NCBI GenBank assembly: GCA_016342455.1
Contig: JAEIOE010000014.1
Span: 1 to 44,989 of the forward strand
Origin: Mycoplasmatota bacterium
GTDB lineage: Bacteria; Bacillota_I; Bacilli_A; Izemoplasmatales; Hujiaoplasmataceae
DNA: 44,989 nucleotides
Direction: 5' to 3'
Every line of letters begins with the position of its first letter. Positions within the stretch are counted from its first letter, which is position 1. Both the position numbers and the translations under genes were made by a program. A model generated the notes under the pieces. It saw only the letters and a program-made list of their open reading frames with translations. It did not search any database and was not told the origin of the DNA. Below are positions 1,535-11,340 of the stretch, one piece after another.

Positions 1535-2386
1535 CTACAAAAAACTGTATATATTCGTAAAATATTGGGTTTTATTAGCATCCACGAATTTTTTTACCGC
1601 TGCATCATCGCCCTTAAATACCTTAATTAAAGTAGATCCGGAACCGGTCATAGTTAATCCTTCATCACCAAGTTCATCTTTAATGCGGTTATATGCTTCC
1701 TGGACTTTGTTATTATTCTTCATAGCTATTTTTTCTAAAGAATTATGCATATTAGCTATGAAATCAGAAACATTCTTTTTTTGAATTGCTTTTCTTATTT
1801 TCTTCATACTTATATTGTCAAAACCAAAACGATCTCCTAATGTAAATATATCTTGAGTTGATATATATTCTCTTGGGTTTACTAACAAAACTTTGTAATC
1901 GGAAAAATCCATATCAATTTTTGTTACTTTTTCACCAATACCCTCTACAATTGCAGGATAATCGACTAAACAATATGGAATATCAGCTCCAAATTTGACT
2001 CCAAGTTTTTGCATTTCTTCCATAGATATATTTAAATTAAATAATTTGTTTATTCCTCTAATTATAGCGGCAGCGTCTACAGAGTTTCCTGCTAATCCTG
2101 CGCCGAACGGAATCACTTTATCTATTGTTACAGTTACTCCTTTATCCGGAGCATATTCTTTTATCATATATCTAGCTGATTCAATTACCAAATTGTTTTG
2201 ATTTGATAGAAATAAATCATTCGATTTAACAATAACTAATCCCGGAGAATTTAATTCTTCTATTTTGACTGTATCATAAAGATCTATTTTTGTATTAATC
2301 ATTTCTAAATCATGATATCCATCTCTTCTCGCTCCAATAACGTTAATAAATAGATTAACTTTTGCGTAAGCTTTTTCTATTACCAT
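1535..2386 (-). CDS. ispE: 4-diphosphocytidyl-2-C-methyl-D-erythritol kinase
   Basis: This GHMP-family kinase phosphorylates CDP-methylerythritol in the non-mevalonate (MEP) pathway to isopentenyl diphosphate. The N-terminal AYAKVNLFINVIGARRDGYH segment is the classic IspE start. The GHMP ATP-binding glycine loop appears as PFGAGLAGNSVDAAA (canonical PxGAGLGGGSSDAA). The C-terminal LTMTGSGSTLI matches the third GHMP motif. The preferred start is the ATG at 2386, nine bases after AAGGAG; an in-frame TTG lies immediately before it. The glycine loop reads GLAGNSVD instead of the common GLGGGSSD, a mild deviation worth noting but not obviously inactivating. Its presence shows isoprenoids are made by the MEP route. 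Confidence 0.93.
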   Translation of the reverse strand: MVIEKAYAKVNLFINVIGARRDGYHDLEMINTKIDLYDTVKIEELNSPGLVIVKSNDLFLSNQNNLVIESARYMIKEYAPDKGVTVTIDKVIPFGAGLAGNSVDAAAIIRGINKLFNLNISMEEMQKLGVKFGADIPYCLVDYPAIVEGIGEKVTKIDMDFSDYKVLLVNPREYISTQDIFTLGDRFGFDNISMKKIRKAIQKKNVSDFIANMHNSLEKIAMKNNNKVQEAYNRIKDELGDEGLTMTGSGSTLIKVFKGDDAAVKKFVDANKTQYFTNIYSFL

Positions 2387-2441
2387 CAAATCACACTCCT
2401 TCTTGACAGTATTATTTTACCATATTAAGGTGTTTTTTTCA

Positions 2442-2771
2442 CTAAATTACCTGGATACTTAAAATATCAAAGGCATTTATTTTTTCTGTTGTTGATAAGG
2501 TAATAATTTTAGTATTGTAATCAAGTTTTTTAACATATCCAAAGGTTATCTTAGAATATCCCGCTTCAAAATATGTTATCGCAATTTCTTTTTCATCCAA
2601 AATTGCTTCTTGAAGGGCAAAATTCATATTTGTAAAATCATCTTCACTAAGTATTGGCTTTTTTGTTTTATTTAATCGATGTTTCATCTCTCTTAACATC
2701 GGATTAAACCCACTTAATGCATCAAATGCGGCCCATTTAATAATCCCTCTATCTCGATAGGTATTAAGCAT
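2442..2771 (-). CDS. YolD-like protein
   Basis: This is a 109-residue protein of the YolD-like family, typically encoded directly downstream of UvrX/YqjW-type Y-family polymerases in Firmicutes. It begins with the usual MLNTYRDRGIIKWAAFDAL stretch, including the family's RDRG and W-x-AF pattern. The C-terminal half is predicted to be mostly beta. Its start overlaps the end of the polymerase gene by 8 bases, indicating translational coupling. The molecular function of the family is not established; the fixed pairing suggests an accessory role in mutagenic DNA repair, which is inference. Confidence 0.85.
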   Translation of the reverse strand: MLNTYRDRGIIKWAAFDALSGFNPMLREMKHRLNKTKKPILSEDDFTNMNFALQEAILDEKEIAITYFEAGYSKITFGYVKKLDYNTKIITLSTTEKINAFDILSIQVI

Positions 2772-4029
2772 TATGCCCTCCTATCATATCATTTCTAGCC
2801 TTAACAGTAGAAGATTTTAATTCACTAGAGGCTCTATTAACACTATTTTTTCCATATCTTTCTTTTATTTCATCAATAGCGTTAAAAACATCTCTTTCTC
2901 TCAAAACCTCGTTCACATCTTCAAATAAGCTAATTTGATATCCGTTTTTTTCTACTAAATTAGTAACAGCCACTCTAACTACCCTAACTGGGGAGTTATC
3001 ATAAAATTTATCCATCAATTCTAAACAAGCTCTATATACATGTGATTCATTTTGCGTTGGTTGAGGTAATTTTTTTTGTCTTGCAAATCCACCACCAACT
3101 TCTTTACTGTAAGCAAACCCAAAATGAACTGTATTTGCCATTTTCTTACCTAACCTTAACCTTCTACATACATCATCTACCATCTCTCTAATGATTTGGT
3201 ATATTTCAGGTCTGTAATAATCATGAAATAACGTTTGGCCAATTCCATAAGATTTATTCGCAGGCTTTATGTTCATTTTTTGTTGTATTAAACTCATGTC
3301 TATTCCGTGAGTATGGTAGTATAATTCTTCGCCAATTACTCCAAATTTTTTCTTTAATTTCTTAACATCGTATTTTGCTAAATCTCCTATTTTGTAAATA
3401 CCTAAGTTGTTTAGATTTCGTTCCATATTTCTGCCGATACCCCACATTTCTGATAATGGAGTGACAGGCCAAAGCCTTGTAGGTAAATCTTCATAATCCC
3501 ATTTGGCTATAAATTCTGGAGAGTGCTTTGATTCAATATCCAAAGCTAATTTAGCCATTAACATATTAGGTCCTATACCACATGTTGCAAATATTTTAGT
3601 TTGATCATAGATTGCTTTCAAAATCATCTTAGCTAATTTATAATCTGTCGTTTTATAGTACTTTAAATATTCAGTTGCATCTATAAAGACCTCATCTACA
3701 GAGTATACATATACATCATCTTCTGAAACAAACTGAAGATAGATTTCAACAATCCTAGTTGAGTACTCCAAATACCTTTCCATTTTAGGTTTTCTATATA
3801 TAATATTAATATTTTTAGGTAATTCATATATTCTACATCTATTTGGCACACCAAAGGTTTTTAAATATGGAGAAACGGCTAAAACAATGGATCCTCCACC
3901 CCTCGATTTATCCGCTACAACTAAAGGGGTTTTAAATGGATCTAATCCAGAAATAGCACATTCAACTGATGCATAAAAACTTTTCAAGTCAACACACAGA
4001 ATATTTCTGTGTAATCTATATTCTTCCAT
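2764..4029 (-). CDS. Y-family DNA polymerase (UvrX/YqjW-like, UmuC family)
   Basis: This is an error-prone translesion polymerase of 421 residues. The catalytic carboxylates are visible: D14 in ILCVDLKSFYASVE and D112-E113 in YSVDEVFID. The thumb helix-hairpin-helix region contains MWGIGRNMERNLNNLGI. A probable sliding-clamp-binding motif, QISLF, lies near residue 367, so it should dock on the beta clamp (dnaN in this window). The long C-terminus and the overlapping YolD gene mark it as the UvrX/YqjW type rather than classical DinB. Such genes are often SOS-controlled, but no clear GAAC-N4-GTTC LexA box was seen in the 280-base upstream gap. Confidence 0.92.
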   Translation of the reverse strand: MEEYRLHRNILCVDLKSFYASVECAISGLDPFKTPLVVADKSRGGGSIVLAVSPYLKTFGVPNRCRIYELPKNINIIYRKPKMERYLEYSTRIVEIYLQFVSEDDVYVYSVDEVFIDATEYLKYYKTTDYKLAKMILKAIYDQTKIFATCGIGPNMLMAKLALDIESKHSPEFIAKWDYEDLPTRLWPVTPLSEMWGIGRNMERNLNNLGIYKIGDLAKYDVKKLKKKFGVIGEELYYHTHGIDMSLIQQKMNIKPANKSYGIGQTLFHDYYRPEIYQIIREMVDDVCRRLRLGKKMANTVHFGFAYSKEVGGGFARQKKLPQPTQNESHVYRACLELMDKFYDNSPVRVVRVAVTNLVEKNGYQISLFEDVNEVLRERDVFNAIDEIKERYGKNSVNRASSELKSSTVKARNDMIGGHNA

Positions 4030-4269
4030 AGCAAACCTCCTTTCAAATATTATACCTTTGTTGAAGAAAAAAAACTACAAATATTTGATAATTTTTCTAT
4101 AAAAAAATATCAAATTATAAATTTAGGAAACAACATTTGAAAATGAACAGTTTAAAATATGTATATATATGAAAGAAGATAATTTAAGTATATTTTTTAC
4201 AACTAAAATGACCATTTATAGGTGTAATATATGATTTCCAATTTTTAGATTTTTAGAGTAAAATTAAAA

Positions 4270-4297
4270 AAACACACTATGTAAAAATAGTGAGTTT
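4270..4297 (-). terminator. Intrinsic terminator of the pst-pho operon
   Basis: Eleven-base arms (4270-4280 and 4287-4297, one mismatch) enclose a six-base loop and are followed by a T tract on the minus strand. It lies 15 bases past the phoR stop and closes the phosphate operon before the polymerase gene. The rest of the 4030-4312 gap is AT-rich and shows no gene. Confidence 0.8.
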
Positions 4298-4312
4298 AAT
4301 GTCAAATGCTTA

Positions 4313-6016
4313 CTAAGAATGTGAATTTAGTGGAAGATATACTTTTACTGTTGTACCCTTTCCTTCTATACTATCTAATTCTATATGTCCATCATAATTT
4401 AGTACTATATGCTTTACAATTGATAAACCTAGCCCTGTACCACCCGTAATCTTACTTCTTGCTTTATCAACACGGAAGAATCTTTCAAAAATCCGTGATT
4501 GGTCTGCTTTTGGTATACCAATTCCATTATCTTGTATTTCTATTACTAAATTCAAGTTGTTTCTATATATCTTAGCTTTAATAATCCCTGCTTCCTTACC
4601 ATACTTAACAGAATTTTCTATTAGGTTTTTTATTACCTGAAATAGTTCTTCATAGTTAGCAATTAGATAGATATCTTCCTTCTCTAATTCGAGTTGCATA
4701 TTTTTCGCTTCAATCGATCTTTTGAGTGAATTTGCTACTTCATCTAATACTGTTTTTACATTTATATCACGTCTAAGCACTAACGGTTGTTGGTTTTCAT
4801 ATTTTGATAAAGTTAGCATATCCATTACAAGATTATTCATCCTCTTTGCTTCTTCAGATATTCTTCTAGACAAATCAATTATAGTTTTTTGATCTTTAGC
4901 CATTCCTTCTATAATAATATCGGATGATCCAATAATTGAAGTCAATGGCGATTTCAATTCATGCGATGCGTTATCAAAAAAGTCTTTTTTCAATATTTCT
5001 ATATTTTTAATTACAGTTACATCCGTGAATAATAAAATTACACTGGGTTGATTTAACCAATTCTTTTCTAAATAATTGATTGAGACTGAATAATACTCTT
5101 CTTTAATTTTTATAACTGAATTTGTATTTATACCTTTTTCGAATGCTTTTTCAATATATTTTTGTATATCATCATTTCTAAATAAAAACCTATAATTTTT
5201 GTTCAGATTAATATCTATATTAAATCTGTAGAGTCTTCTTAAAAATTGATTGAGCATTACAATTAATCCGTCTTTATCAAGAACGCATATCCCTTGGTTC
5301 ATATGATTTAATAGGAAGTCTGTTTTTTCAGTTTCTGATTTTAAAGAAGATATGTTAGTAGCTATCAATTTGTTAATATCATTTATTTCAGTAATTAGGT
5401 CATTTATTTCATCTTGTTTTCTTACTGGAACAATTTTTTCATATTCTCCGTTATTAACTCTTCTAAGTATAGCTTTGATTTCTTTAAGCGGTCTAAGTGC
5501 ATCCCTTATTAAAGCAGAACTCAATAAAACAGTTATGAATATAATAATAACTCCAACAACTATTGATAATCCTACAAAATCATTTAAGAAAGGTGCAATC
5601 GAACTTATTGGAATTGCCAATCTTATAATATTGCCGTCCCCAAGCGGTTCTGCAATGTACATCATTTTAAAGCCCAATGTATCAGATTGACGTATGTATG
5701 CATCTCCTAAGTTTATAAATTCCGGTCTATTAGAATGGTTTTCCAAATTTTCTGCTAAAGAATCTACAATTACTGTTCCATCCGAACTGATAAAAGTAAT
5801 TCTAATATATGATTCAATACTTTCATATTTATCAACAATTCTGTTTACATCAGGGTCGGTTTCATATTCAATTGTAAGTATTTCTATATAATTCCTTAAA
5901 TTTAATTCAGTTATATCGTTGATATTATTCCTTGCAATAAGATACGCACCTATAACAAATAAAAGTATCGCTATCAGTGTTGCCGAAATAAACTCTAATG
6001 TAATTTTTCTTTTCAT
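4313..6016 (-). CDS. phoR: Phosphate-sensing histidine kinase PhoR
   Basis: This is a membrane sensor kinase of 567 residues. Order of parts: TM1 about residues 9-28, an extracytoplasmic sensing domain about 30-145 (PAS/Cache-like size), TM2 about 147-169, HAMP about 170-222, a cytoplasmic PAS domain about 228-340, a HisKA dimerisation helix with phospho-acceptor H352 in FFDNASHELKSPLTS, then the HATPase domain with N box NLIENSVKYG (464-473), G1 DNGIGIP (496-502) and G2 GGTGLGLS (525-532). This is the PhoR/WalK-like layout. Its ATG overlaps the phoP TGA stop (ATGA), so the two are translationally coupled. Position at the end of the pst operon, behind phoU and phoP, makes phosphate the likely signal, passed on through PstB/PhoU. 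Confidence 0.93.
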   Translation of the reverse strand: MKRKITLEFISATLIAILLFVIGAYLIARNNINDITELNLRNYIEILTIEYETDPDVNRIVDKYESIESYIRITFISSDGTVIVDSLAENLENHSNRPEFINLGDAYIRQSDTLGFKMMYIAEPLGDGNIIRLAIPISSIAPFLNDFVGLSIVVGVIIIFITVLLSSALIRDALRPLKEIKAILRRVNNGEYEKIVPVRKQDEINDLITEINDINKLIATNISSLKSETEKTDFLLNHMNQGICVLDKDGLIVMLNQFLRRLYRFNIDINLNKNYRFLFRNDDIQKYIEKAFEKGINTNSVIKIKEEYYSVSINYLEKNWLNQPSVILLFTDVTVIKNIEILKKDFFDNASHELKSPLTSIIGSSDIIIEGMAKDQKTIIDLSRRISEEAKRMNNLVMDMLTLSKYENQQPLVLRRDINVKTVLDEVANSLKRSIEAKNMQLELEKEDIYLIANYEELFQVIKNLIENSVKYGKEAGIIKAKIYRNNLNLVIEIQDNGIGIPKADQSRIFERFFRVDKARSKITGGTGLGLSIVKHIVLNYDGHIELDSIEGKGTTVKVYLPLNSHS

Positions 6017-6696
6017 AATACAAACTTATATCCTATTCCTCTAATGTTTTCTATCGTTTGTTCTTCAATGCCCGCCTCTTTCAGCTTTCTTCGTATTTCT
6101 TTTATATGAACATCTACAGTTCTTGTCTCTCCAATATATTCAAATCCCCATACTAAATTGAATATATCATCTCGAGAAACAATTACGTTATAATTTTCCA
6201 TCAATAATTTAAGTAAACTAAACTGTTTCTTTGTGAATACAACCGGTACTTTCTTATATAAACACTCGTGTCTCTTAGAATCTAATTCCAAATTCCCTAA
6301 GACAATAATATTTGATTTATCTTCTCTGTACCTTCTTAACAAAGCTTTTACTCTACTGACAAGTTCTAAAACTCCAAAAGGTTTTATTAAATAATCATCC
6401 GCTCCTGAATCTAGTCCAATAACTTTATCAACTTCGCTGATTTTTGCAGAAATAATCATAACCGGAATATCCTGAAACTGTGGATTTGATTTTAGGTGCT
6501 TGAGAATTTCAAGGCCATCTAAATCCGGTAACATAATGTCTAGTAAAAATAAATCAGGCTTTTCATTTTCTAGCCTTTTGTATAAAGATTTTGCATCATC
6601 AAAAGAAGAAATCTCATAATTTGAATTTCTCAAAGCTATCTGTATAACGTTTTGTATATTTTGGTCATCTTCTACCGAAAAAATTAATGGTTTCAT
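6013..6696 (-). CDS. phoP: Response regulator PhoP/PhoB (OmpR family)
   Basis: This is a 227-residue two-domain transcription factor. The receiver has the acidic cluster E9-D10-D11, phospho-acceptor D53 in LLDIMLPDLDG, switch residue S83 and K105 in LIKPFG. The C-terminal winged helix contains RDDIFNLVWG and RTVDVHIKEIRRKL, typical of the OmpR/PhoB class. The start ATG follows AAGGGG at good spacing. The stop codon is TGA, which helps prove standard code usage. It presumably binds the repeated TTTACA elements upstream of pstS. The PhoP/PhoB assignment over other OmpR regulators rests on its place between phoU and phoR. Confidence 0.93.
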   Translation of the reverse strand: MKPLIFSVEDDQNIQNVIQIALRNSNYEISSFDDAKSLYKRLENEKPDLFLLDIMLPDLDGLEILKHLKSNPQFQDIPVMIISAKISEVDKVIGLDSGADDYLIKPFGVLELVSRVKALLRRYREDKSNIIVLGNLELDSKRHECLYKKVPVVFTKKQFSLLKLLMENYNVIVSRDDIFNLVWGFEYIGETRTVDVHIKEIRRKLKEAGIEEQTIENIRGIGYKFVL

Positions 6697-6708: not shown

Positions 6709-7356
6709 TTATTGGTGTTCACCTGTAATAGAAAAAATTACCCATTCTGCTAAATTTACTGCATGGTCCCCGATTCTTTCAAGATATTTCGCTGCCATCA
6801 TTAAATATATTGAATAATCAGCACTAATGTTATTTTCTTTAATTGCCTTTACAACTAATTGTTTAATTTCTTCAAAATAATCATCTACTAAATCATCTTT
6901 ATCAATTACTTCTTTTGCCATATTTATATCTTTATTAACAAATGAATCAAGAGCCAATCTAATCATCTCTTCACAAACATCTATCATTAACTTGATTTGA
7001 GGCAGATTAAAGTTACCTTCCGATTTTTCCATAAATACTGTCAATCGCGATAAATCCACTGCGTGATCACCGATTCTTTCCAAATCCGTTATCATTTTTA
7101 GTACCGAAGTAATCAACCTTAAGTCTTTGGCAACCGGTTGCTCCCTCAATATTATTCTCATACATTCTTTTTCTATTGAATATTCAAAGTCATTTACTAA
7201 TTTGTCTTCTTTTATTATTCTTTCTGCCAGTTCTGAATTCATATTAATAAAAGAATGTAATGCATCTGTAATGTTTCTAATAACTAAGTCACTCATCCTA
7301 ATTAGATTAAGTTTCAAATTATCTAATTCGGAATCAAATTGAGTTCTGTAAGTCAT
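6709..7356 (-). CDS. phoU: Phosphate signalling protein PhoU
   Basis: PhoU is a cytosolic metal-binding protein that links the Pst transporter to PhoR and damps the Pho response when phosphate is plentiful. The 215-residue sequence shows the expected tandem three-helix repeats, each with the metal-cluster motif: DLERIGDHAVDLSRL in the first half and YLERIGDHAVNLAEW in the second. It lies between pstB and phoP with short gaps, the usual order. Confidence 0.96.
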   Translation of the reverse strand: MTYRTQFDSELDNLKLNLIRMSDLVIRNITDALHSFINMNSELAERIIKEDKLVNDFEYSIEKECMRIILREQPVAKDLRLITSVLKMITDLERIGDHAVDLSRLTVFMEKSEGNFNLPQIKLMIDVCEEMIRLALDSFVNKDINMAKEVIDKDDLVDDYFEEIKQLVVKAIKENNISADYSIYLMMAAKYLERIGDHAVNLAEWVIFSITGEHQ

Positions 7357-7409: not shown

Positions 7410-8165
7410 TCAACCAAAACGCCCCGTAATATATTCTTCAGTCTTAGCTTTTGCTGGATTTGAAAATATCTTATCAGTTTTATCATACTCTATCAATTCT
7501 CCCATTAATAGAAAAGCGGTATTATCTGATATACGAGCAGCTTGTTGCATATTATGAGTCACAATAACTATTGTATATTTTTGTTTTAACTCTAGTATTA
7601 AATCTTCTATTTTAGCGGTTGCAATAGGATCTAACGCACTTGTAGGCTCATCCATTAATATAACGTCAGGGCGCATTGCTATCGCTCTCGCAATACACAG
7701 TCGTTGTTGTTGGCCGCCAGATAATTCTTTTGCACTTTCCTTTAACCTGTCTCTTACTTCATCATAAAGTGCGGCGTTTTTTAGTGCTTGTATTACCGTT
7801 TCTTGCAGTATTTTTTTATCTTTTACCCCTTGACATCTTGGACCATAAGCAACATTATCAAATATAGACATAGGAAATGGATTTGGTTTTTGAAAAACCA
7901 TTCCTACATTTGTTCTTAAGTCTATAACATCAAAGTCTTTAGAAAAAATATCGTTTCCTTCGTATTTAATATCACCCTTTACATGACAGTTTTCAATTAA
8001 ATCATTCATTCTGTTTAATGTCCTTAACAATGTTGATTTTCCACAACCTGATGGTCCTATTAAGGCGGTTATCTCATTTTTTGGGATATCCATATTTATA
8101 TCTAAAAGAGCGGTTTTCTCTCCATATTTTAGATTTAGTTTCTTTATTGTGAATACTTTTTCCAT
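7410..8165 (-). CDS. pstB: Phosphate ABC transporter ATPase PstB
   Basis: This is the 251-residue ATPase subunit of the high-affinity phosphate importer. Walker A is GPSGCGKST; the following [10 protein letters not shown] is characteristic of PstB. The ABC signature is LSGGQQQR, Walker B is [13 protein letters not shown], and the switch His is in [10 protein letters not shown]. It sits directly downstream of pstA (10-base gap) on the same transcript and would power transport through PstC/PstA. Confidence 0.97.
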
Positions 8166-8175
8166 TTTTTTACTC

Positions 8176-9369
8176 CTAGTAAGCGATTTTTCTAACTATA
8201 AACTTAACTGATAGGTTTAATACAAGCACTACGATTAAGATTATGATTGAAATAGCACAAGCTAATTCAAAATTAGGTACTTCTCCAGACATAACACTCC
8301 ATATATGAACTGCTAAACTAGTTGATCTTTCCGTTATTATAATTTCATCTTTAATAGATGTTCCTATCGCATAGATTAACGCTGCTGACTCACCTATAAT
8401 TCTTCCTACACTTAGTAATACCGCAGATAATATTCCAGGTATGGCTGATTTTAGAATAATCTTAAATGTTGTTTGATTTCGATTAGCTCCTAAAGCTAAT
8501 GATGCTTGTCTATATTCATCAGGTATTGTTTTTAATGTTTCTTCAGTTGAAGAAATAATTACCGGTAGAATAATAACTGCCAAGGTTAAACTTCCTGATA
8601 TTAGATTTCCTGTGTCCGCCCCTGTTAAAGAAGAAACTATTGGTATAAACACAGCCGCTCCCAACAGGCCGAAAATAATAGAAGGAACACCAGTTAACAT
8701 TTCGATAAGTCTTCTCAATACATTTACAAATTTATTCTTTTTCGGGGCAAATTCGTGAAGATAAATGGCTGTGAAAACACCTATTGGTAAAGCAATCACC
8801 AGAGTCATTATTACTAAATATAAGGTTGTAATTAAAGACCCTCTAATTCCTTTTCCTGAAGTGGAAACCATGATATCTGCTATGCTTGTTTTAGTATCAA
8901 ATAATTGATTCGCTTTTTCAGCTCCGTTAGAGGGTAAAAGCATCGTATTATCTGAAAATCGAACTGTCATTAATTTTTGTCCACTAGAAATTGATATCGT
9001 TGCAGTTTCGTCATTTTTATCTGGAATGTTTGCGAGTGGAGAATCGATATCAACATATGTAATCATTATAATATGATGACCCTCTGTATCTTCATCATCC
9101 ATAAAAGATATTCCCCACCTTGTAGAAAAATATTCCTCATCAGATAAACTTGAAGGAGCAGCAAAATCATTAGTAGTAATTTCTGTTGAATAATATCCAT
9201 TGAATACATTTGAGTTATAGTCTCCTGTAATTAAATTCCAACTTAACAACGAACTTCCATTGCTAAATACATAGAAAAATACGGCAACTAAGATAATTAA
9301 CCCAACTAATGATACAAGTGAAATAAGTAATTGAGTCAGTTTATCTTTTACATATCTTTTGCTTTTCAT
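8176..9369 (-). CDS. pstA: Phosphate ABC transporter permease PstA with extracytoplasmic insert
   Basis: This is one of the two phosphate channel subunits. After TM1 (about residues 12-35) there is a large soluble insert, about residues 45-172, before the second TM (about 178-202). The remainder is a normal type-I ABC permease core with the EAA loop ([21 protein letters not shown]). At 397 residues it is about 100 longer than typical PstA (around 280-300), entirely because of the insert. The insert's core (about 83-140) has a PDZ-like rhythm: [19 protein letters not shown], then [12 protein letters not shown]. It should face outwards, where the binding protein docks. pstC overlaps it by one base (TAATG). 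Confidence 0.93.
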
Positions 9370-10304
9370 TATGAAAACCTCCCTATTTTTTTCTTAGCGA
9401 AGTTTAATAGTAAATTTATAACTATAATAAGAACAACTAATATAATACCTACTGAAAACCTGATATCATAATCTAATCCAGTTGTTTCTTTTATTCCAAG
9501 TAACATAGTAGAAGTCAATGTTCTAGTAGTTCCAAATAAATTGAAATTTGGTCCTGTTCCTGCATTCCCAGCAACCATAGAAACGGCTGTAGCTTCTCCT
9601 AGTGATCGCCCTACACCAAGTATAATACCTGCAAATATTCCAGATTTAGCATCTACAAGAGTTATTTTAAATAAAGTCTGCATTTTTGTAGCTCCTAATG
9701 CTAATGAGTTTTGTTCTAAGTCTTTTCTCACCGCTTTAATAGCTGTGATAGAAAGAAGAGTAATCGTAGGCATTATCATGATTGCTAATACAAATATTGT
9801 TGTTAAAGTAGATATTCCTCCCGCAGTCTGCATTTGAAATAATGCGGCTATTTTTTTGACCACGTTTGTTATTACACCTAATCCAAAAACACCAAACACT
9901 ATAGATGGTATTGCAGCTAATAATTCGATTACTATCTGAAAGAAGTTACTAATTGTTTTGGAAGTCATTTTTGCTATAAACAAAGCGGTGAGTATTGAAA
10001 TGGGAATTGCAATTACCGCAGAAAGAAACACTACATATAAAGTATTAATTATAATGAAAAATACTCCATATACATTGGGAGAAATATACCACTCATTTCC
10101 CAACAAAAATCTTATTAAATCTACACTTAAATCACCATATTGTGATTCTAAAAAAGGAGCAACGCCTCTTTCAGATATAAAAATTATTATTAACAAAACA
10201 AATGAAGCAGCCAAAATTGTAGGCATTAACAAAGCTATTTGAGTTATTTTATCAACAATTTTATTTCTCTGTTTTATTTTTTTAGTTGTTACAGTTAATC
10301 CCAT
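9369..10304 (-). CDS. pstC: Phosphate ABC transporter permease PstC
   Basis: This 311-residue membrane protein has about six TM segments and is the partner permease of PstA. The cytoplasmic EAA coupling loop is ALGATKMQTLFKITLVDAKS, followed by GRSLGEATAV, a pattern conserved in PstC. It has no large insert, in contrast to PstA. Its start has a clear AAGGAG site 5' of the ATG. A stable intercistronic hairpin separates it from pstS. Confidence 0.95.
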   Translation of the reverse strand: MGLTVTTKKIKQRNKIVDKITQIALLMPTILAASFVLLIIIFISERGVAPFLESQYGDLSVDLIRFLLGNEWYISPNVYGVFFIIINTLYVVFLSAVIAIPISILTALFIAKMTSKTISNFFQIVIELLAAIPSIVFGVFGLGVITNVVKKIAALFQMQTAGGISTLTTIFVLAIMIMPTITLLSITAIKAVRKDLEQNSLALGATKMQTLFKITLVDAKSGIFAGIILGVGRSLGEATAVSMVAGNAGTGPNFNLFGTTRTLTSTMLLGIKETTGLDYDIRFSVGIILVVLIIVINLLLNFAKKKIGRFS

Positions 10305-10380: not shown

Positions 10381-11340
10381 TTATGCAGATATTTCATTCC
10401 ATGTTGTAACATCGCCAGCGTATATCTTTTTGATTTGTTCAGCTGTAATATTTATCAAAGAATTATTTACAGGATTCACTACAACTACGACAGCGTCCCA
10501 ACAGATTTGACCAAAAGTATCTGTAGCTCCTGGTTCTGAATCTTTAAAATCTCTTGATGCAAAGCCTATATGTAATTTATTTGCTCCATCAGCTTCGGTA
10601 CCTTGAACTCTTTTGTACGCATCTCCCGAACCTGTATGATTGTGGTCTGCTATAAAATTTCCGCACTTAACTGAAAATGCTTCAGATAAACCTTTAGCGA
10701 CTTTTTCAACTGATGTTGATCCACCAAATCTAATAGTTATTTCTGAGTTATCCAAATCACATACTGAATAGTTGGCTTTTATATCGTCCCATGATACATC
10801 AGTAGAAGAACTTTCTATTATGCCCCCTTTATCTGCAATGATAGCTTTTCCTTCTACTGTAAACATGAATGCTAGAAACGCTTCTACTATAGCTTCCTCT
10901 GTTTCCATTCCTGTCCAATCTATTCTAGTCATATACATGAAAGGTCTTTTTAAACCATATGTGTTGTTTAATACGTTGTCTATCGTCGCTTCTACACCTT
11001 CAAAATTTAATCCTGTTAACCCAGAATCATCTAAAGAAGATAAAGATACATATCCAATACCGTATTCATCACCACTAATGCTTGAAATCATCGATCCATT
11101 TCCATCTACTTCAAGATATCCAGATACAAGTTCCGCATTATCCTCTACAGCATCATCAAAATCAATGCCTTTAAAGAACGCTTCTCTTGTTCCTGATGTT
11201 GTATCTCTTGTATATACTTTTATAGCACTTGCTTGATCAAAGCTATAAGTTGTTGTTGTTTCTTGAATTGTTGTCTCGTTATCACAAGCTGCTAATCCAA
11301 ATACTATAAATAAACTTGCTAACAATACTAATTTTTTCAT
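10381..11340 (-). CDS. pstS: Phosphate-binding lipoprotein PstS, apparently circularly permuted
   Basis: This is the extracellular phosphate-binding subunit of the Pst importer. The ATG at 11340 is chosen because GGAG lies just upstream and it begins a lipoprotein signal (MKKLVLLASLF, lipobox LAAC, Cys19); an upstream in-frame start would add 14 residues. Residues about 39-176 match what is normally the C-terminal half of PstS: IKVYTRDTTSGTREAFF, then IGYVSL, then the ending FLAFMFTVEGKAII. Residues about 199-319 match the normal N-terminal half: ITIRFGGSTSVEKVAKGL, HTGSGDAYKRV, IGFASRDFKDSE, WDAVVVVVNPVN, and IYAGDVTTWNEI, where the protein ends. The two halves are therefore in swapped order. 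It is the first gene of the pst-pho operon, behind PhoP-like repeats. Confidence 0.93.
   Translation of the reverse strand: MKKLVLLASLFIVFGLAACDNETTIQETTTTYSFDQASAIKVYTRDTTSGTREAFFKGIDFDDAVEDNAELVSGYLEVDGNGSMISSISGDEYGIGYVSLSSLDDSGLTGLNFEGVEATIDNVLNNTYGLKRPFMYMTRIDWTGMETEEAIVEAFLAFMFTVEGKAIIADKGGIIESSSTDVSWDDIKANYSVCDLDNSEITIRFGGSTSVEKVAKGLSEAFSVKCGNFIADHNHTGSGDAYKRVQGTEADGANKLHIGFASRDFKDSEPGATDTFGQICWDAVVVVVNPVNNSLINITAEQIKKIYAGDVTTWNEISA

Follow-up and report, generated by a model that had tools for sequence, protein, structure and literature searches.

What order do the two halves of the phosphate-binding protein PstS take in this locus, and how might that order have come about? The window, by which we mean the whole stretch of 44,989 nucleotides that was analysed, carries on its reverse strand a pstS gene (10381..11340, an open reading frame of 319 residues) encoding a circularly permuted phosphate-binding lipoprotein; all of the parts of the gene described here lie on that strand. 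A signal peptide with its lipobox (FGLAAC; residues 1–19, 11284..11340) is read directly from the sequence, and Cys19 is invariant in 19 relatives. Next comes the former C-terminal half (residues 38–178, 10807..11229), with YTRDTTSGTR, IGYVSL, RPF and FTVEGKAII. Its TRDTTSGTR phosphate loop (residues 44–52, 11185..11211) is invariant or near-invariant in our homologue alignments A2 and A4. As had been predicted, the old termini are joined by a linker of about 22 residues (179–200, 10741..10806); across the permuted relatives the median length is 23 residues (range 13–32). The former N-terminal half (residues 201–318, 10387..10740) is now second and extends up to the stop. Alignment of the relatives locates in it the GGSTSV phosphate-loop motif (residues 206–211, 10708..10725), HTGSGD (residues 235–240, 10621..10638) and the ASRD of FASRD (residues 261–264, 10549..10560), and YTRDTTSGTR, GGSTSV, HTGSGD and FASRD are all in place.

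The original prediction held that the protein is a circular permutant of PstS, opened between W-N-E-I and V-Y-T-R-D, and two kinds of evidence bear it out. When PDB sequences were searched with phmmer, the canonical PstS chains 4Q8R, 4GD5, 1TWY and 4N13 matched in two swapped stretches, with query residues 40–170 corresponding to the second half of the canonical chain and residues 202–317 to the first (the best whole-sequence E value among the canonical chains is 9e-26). Against 4H1X there is one colinear stretch, 37–317 to 8–264, and the breakpoint is identical. The profiles TIGR02136 (7e-36) and PF12849 (5.9e-18, 66 bits, above the 27-bit cut-off) also match in two reversed segments, as foreseen. 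The curated cut-off of TIGR02136 is not reached (123.9 versus 206.6 bits) because the permutation splits the profile into two swapped stretches, and all of the permuted single-domain PstS proteins tested fall under the NCBIfam PstS cut-off. In a doubling test the window protein was compared with 30 canonical PstS sequences, both native and doubled. With the native sequences the top-scoring single alignment takes in one half of the query (median 40.8 bits, n = 30); once doubled, nearly all of them align along most of the mature query (median 72.4 bits, n = 30). Permuted homologues gain nothing from doubling in the same test. The window PstS is a true circular permutant opened at that junction, and a chance pattern is excluded.

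An AlphaFold2 model calculated from an alignment of 19 orthologues (pLDDT 88.1, pTM 0.82) has the two-lobed fold of a periplasmic binding protein (PBP). Its top Foldseek match is 4H1X (E = 5.8e-24, TM 0.83 on the target, 286 columns), and the next-best fold matches are OpuAC entries. Superposition on a PstS without permutation had been named as an observation that would count against the idea. The model does superpose on a known PstS structure, 4H1X, but that structure is itself permuted; the canonical 4Q8R is aligned by this sequential method over one half only (143 columns, TM 0.40).

The gene stands at the head of an intact pstSCAB–phoU operon that continues into a two-component system, all on the reverse strand, in agreement with the full pst-pho operon that had been claimed. 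The permeases pstC (9369..10304; TIGR02138, 1.1e-61) and pstA (8176..9369, 397 residues; TIGR00974, 2.2e-63) both score over their cut-offs and are followed by the ATPase gene pstB (7410..8165; TIGR00972, 9e-126) and by phoU (6709..7356; TIGR02135, 8e-62). A PhoB-like response regulator (6013..6696; TIGR02154, 2.5e-60) and a PnpS/PhoR-like histidine kinase (4313..6016; NF046044, 1.3e-95) complete the set, each under the cut-off of its profile. PstS is the sole PBP_like_2 protein detected in this genome, which is 97.8% complete.

On these grounds the protein is very probably a working phosphate receptor, anchored in the membrane and serving a Pst ABC importer, and the permuted order of its chain most probably goes back to a tandem duplication in frame. 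The C-terminal half is made first and bears the lipid anchor, the linker of about 22 residues connects the old ends and the N-terminal half comes last and closes the chain, which is predicted to fold into the usual two-lobed clamp. The pocket would then be formed by TR..SGTR from the C-terminal half with GSTS, GSG and SR(D) from the N-terminal half. Phosphate, presumably bound in the cleft between the lobes, would be passed to PstC/PstA, on which the receptor may dock for transport, with PstB supplying the power. The conserved order, the operon and the confidently predicted fold together suggest, as had been proposed, that the protein is probably functional.

Could the gene instead encode a receptor of the same fold for another oxyanion? 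The score under the TIGR02136 cut-off might be taken in that sense, but a low score is just what a profile cut by the permutation is expected to give, and with pstC–pstA–pstB–phoU headed by the gene and the phosphate-type motifs conserved we consider this highly improbable. A different concern is that the gene is an artefact of assembly or reading, its halves belonging to a longer locus that was duplicated or rearranged, a refutation that had been anticipated and for which the source, a draft assembly of 108 contigs, gives some occasion. The flanks of the window gene are, however, without extra halves, and the same order is found in independent genomes that are closed or from cultured organisms, namely Acholeplasma laidlawii (L182), A. 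oculi (L187), A. granularum (L134) and Tenericutes MO-XQ (L158), and in a crystal structure (4H1X). Misassembly is rejected as an explanation by these homologues, and we return to the reading of the gene as a genuine permutant of the phosphate receptor.

A search of related genomes for the same order had been proposed. Full-length colinear homologues occur in 19 of 41 near relatives, a count that includes the genome of the window, and an independently assembled MAG of the same genus has the same order at 74% identity. Class-wide, 91 of 247 genomes match; by hand count about 71 of these are permuted, 19 have the canonical form only and one is partial. The search profile was made from permuted proteins and canonical PstS is therefore undercounted in these figures. 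In one genome (G215) permuted and canonical genes occur together, on separate contigs (L072 and L073). The best 80 named loci are all permuted, one of them a triple form, and A. laidlawii, A. oculi, A. granularum and Paracholeplasma vituli are among the named permuted loci; the closest named records to the window protein are Izemoplasmatales/Bacillota MAGs. A search at the level of the phylum gave matches from the same class only. Beyond the class, permuted PstS is found in Monoglobus pectinilyticus (Clostridia) and on a plasmid of Treponema saccharophilum, where each heads pstCAB–phoU and is annotated merely as a 'substrate-binding domain-containing protein'. The permuted order is the rule in the order to which the window belongs and is common in Bacilli.

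Permuted pstS is also present in four unannotated scaffolds recorded as faecal 'Bacteriophage sp.' (L195, L196, L234 and L235), three of which (L195, L196 and L235) have a pstA-like frame as well. These records are probably bacterial DNA. At another locus (L058, genome G087) two separate permuted pstS genes lie adjacent to each other as a tandem pair.

The original prediction had proposed a search for a duplicated intermediate. Four loci encode C-N-C-N proteins in one reading frame: L054 (593 residues; 1952-3730, reverse strand), L055 (622 residues; 1968-3833, forward strand), L056 (651 residues; 1856-3808, forward strand) and L057 (678 residues; 1740-3773, forward strand). An Acholeplasmataceae MAG has a triple, C-N-C-N-C-N (L135, 910 residues; 2147-4876, forward strand). 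Two further genomes, G389 (643 residues) and G531 (664 residues), likewise give two matches within one frame, and L201 is a frame-broken copy of a double. Repeats inside one protein are 79–92% identical and cluster together in the tree, with the exceptions of L135, the first repeat of which is placed beside a related single gene, and L055/L201, the repeats of which intermingle. Within genus g119 the double form occurs in three of the seven matching genomes and the single form in the other four. The doubles restore the canonical N-to-C junction with 8–9 residues and L135 with 15–20 (the canonical median is five). These proteins are recent, recurrent in-frame duplications of an already permuted gene and not the ancestral intermediate. 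Duplicated forms were found in relatives, but the original N-C-N-C form was not, all of the known doubles being secondary duplications of the permuted form. A frame of 670 residues (L217) was considered as a further fusion and set aside; by eye its first 360 or so residues resemble a CorA-like transporter that continues without a frame break into pstS, and the MAG contains ambiguous bases.

A second breakpoint is seen in locus L059, in a 238,812-base contig of a 99% complete Acholeplasmataceae genome (G212; a single assembly). Here the PstS gene (1846-2772, reverse strand) lies directly upstream of pstC, which starts about 12 bases after it. The protein begins with a signal and lipobox, continues with the last 40 or so residues of the C-terminal half (ELIVKAFVSFMETSEGK...), a linker and the whole N-terminal half, and ends with a five-residue N-to-C junction and the start of the C-terminal half, terminating at RPFMFVTRY-stop. 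It aligns colinearly with the central part of the double L054. In the tree it lies beside the C-N protein of A. granularum (support 100/98), and this position inside the C-N clade makes it a re-cut descendant of a permuted protein. Its AlphaFold2 model, for which the alignment consisted of internal windows of double proteins and trimmed canonical PstS, has pLDDT 92.3 and pTM 0.84, and Foldseek matches it sequentially to the canonical 1TWY, 4GD5 and 4N13 over 222–229 columns. No further re-permutation of this type was seen among 88 genomes of its family or in the class lists. Both cuts, that of the C-N form and that of L059, appear to adjoin strands that cross between the lobes.

Duplication followed by trimming is a standard model for circular permutants (PMC3320104), and for the window gene it would mean an in-frame tandem duplication and then the loss of the outer halves. 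The doubles and triples and the re-cut L059 both fit permutation by duplication. In the other of the two main models (PMC3320104) pstS would have broken into two half-genes that later fused again in the opposite order, with an identical end product. Half-gene pairs were not seen in the loci examined, though, and fused duplicates were seen repeatedly, together with a re-cut single-domain form, so this route seems unlikely to us. Whichever route was taken, did it happen once? That the permuted order is derived is judged from the occurrence of the canonical order across phyla (in PDB chains and in Vibrio, Nostoc and Ilyobacter plasmid copies), not from the rooting of trees. Trees of the reordered halves contain three permuted groups: A, to which the window belongs; f14; and B, the PstS2-like group with 4H1X, Monoglobus and Treponema. 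In free trees group B branches among canonical PstS, and the canonical and PstS2-like proteins are split from the rest with 99–100% bootstrap. At least two independent origins of the same permutation, one in the clade of the window and one in the clade of Streptococcus pneumoniae PstS2, Monoglobus and Treponema, are accordingly a serious possibility, though one that we doubt; an insert in PstA, present in the window and f14 clades and not seen in the PstS2-like group, points the same way. Against this, the breakpoint is shared, as expected from one event, and an AU test does not reject a single permuted/canonical split (p = 0.68), the constrained tree having the higher likelihood. Returning to duplication as the preferred route, we think it rather probable that PstS of Bacilli forms a permutation-by-duplication series comprising canonical N-C, permuted C-N, C-N-C-N, C-N-C-N-C-N and the re-permuted L059, born inside the C-N clade, with both cuts near the interlobe strands and the hinge perhaps the place where the clamp tolerates opening.

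The PstA insert is extracytoplasmic, follows the first membrane helix and comprises about 110 residues (approximately 8875..9207, reverse strand, in the window). It has this length in 96 of 99 group A loci and is longer in the remaining three. The f14 group also has it, and the insert is thereby present in most permuted loci (L060–L065, L114–L192). It is absent from the canonical loci with a readable PstA (L111 being left out as an apparent PstC–PstA fusion) and from all PstS2-like loci except L228, where a long reading frame upstream looks unrelated. With this distribution, in group A and f14 and not in most PstS2-like loci, the insert does not simply track the permutation. By eye it is PDZ-like, a lead at most, with Pfam PDZ_2 giving E values of 0.03–0.07, under the cut-off; a profile search of PDB sequences gave no match at E ≤ 1. 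The PstA proteins of L084 (3858-5369, forward strand) and L168 (504–507 residues) have a longer insert, apparently two tandem copies of the extra domain. At L111 (G129) a reading frame of at least 590 residues, apparently a fused PstC and PstA, adjoins the canonical pstS.

The permuted PstS is no isolated curiosity; the order is widespread in the class and already exists in a solved structure, 4H1X, and is to that extent less novel than first proposed. What is new here are the PstS proteins doubled or tripled in frame and the renewed permutation of L059 at a second breakpoint. It is uncommon for a natural permutant to occur among close relatives in single, double, triple and re-cut versions side by side; for permutation intermediates a 2012 review gives DNA methyltransferases as the documented case (PMC3320104). 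PstS, a small phosphate receptor that is easy to assay, makes the duplication model directly testable on existing genes. Phosphate biosensors and PstS phylogenies based on linear alignment should allow for the permuted form. We found no discussion of a permuted PstS in the literature searched: 'topolog' is absent from the text of a paper on the pneumococcal Pst2 system, which calls the two pneumococcal Pst systems evolutionarily distinct (PMC4913102), and 'permut' from that of a 2025 PstS structure paper with both pneumococcal PstS proteins in its tree.

Among known proteins, canonical PstS (4GD5/4Q8R of Clostridium perfringens, 1TWY of V. cholerae and that of E. coli) is homologous to the window protein in both halves and shares its motifs and operon position, but the half order is reversed; the canonical N-to-C junction is opened in the window protein and the old termini are joined. 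S. pneumoniae PstS 2 (SP_2084, 4H1X, of the Pst2 system) shares both half order and breakpoint, and Pfam likewise matches the 4H1X sequence in two segments; in the best of these, profile positions 3–124 fall on residues 142–255 of a 257-residue stretch. Its identity to the window protein is about 27–29%, and free trees put it in a different clade, although one origin is compatible with the AU test. A reported circular-permutation family with less than 24% identity relates the glycine-betaine-binding 2B4L (OpuAC) to molybdate-binding proteins (CPSARST; PMC2395249); these are very distant from the window protein in sequence and bind other ligands. Treponema pallidum TpMglB-2, a lipid-tethered binding protein of an ABC transporter, is likewise circularly permuted by nature and has been shown to bind its sugar (PMC4990184), and it differs from the window PstS in having a type I sugar-binding fold, another cut point and membership of an unrelated family.
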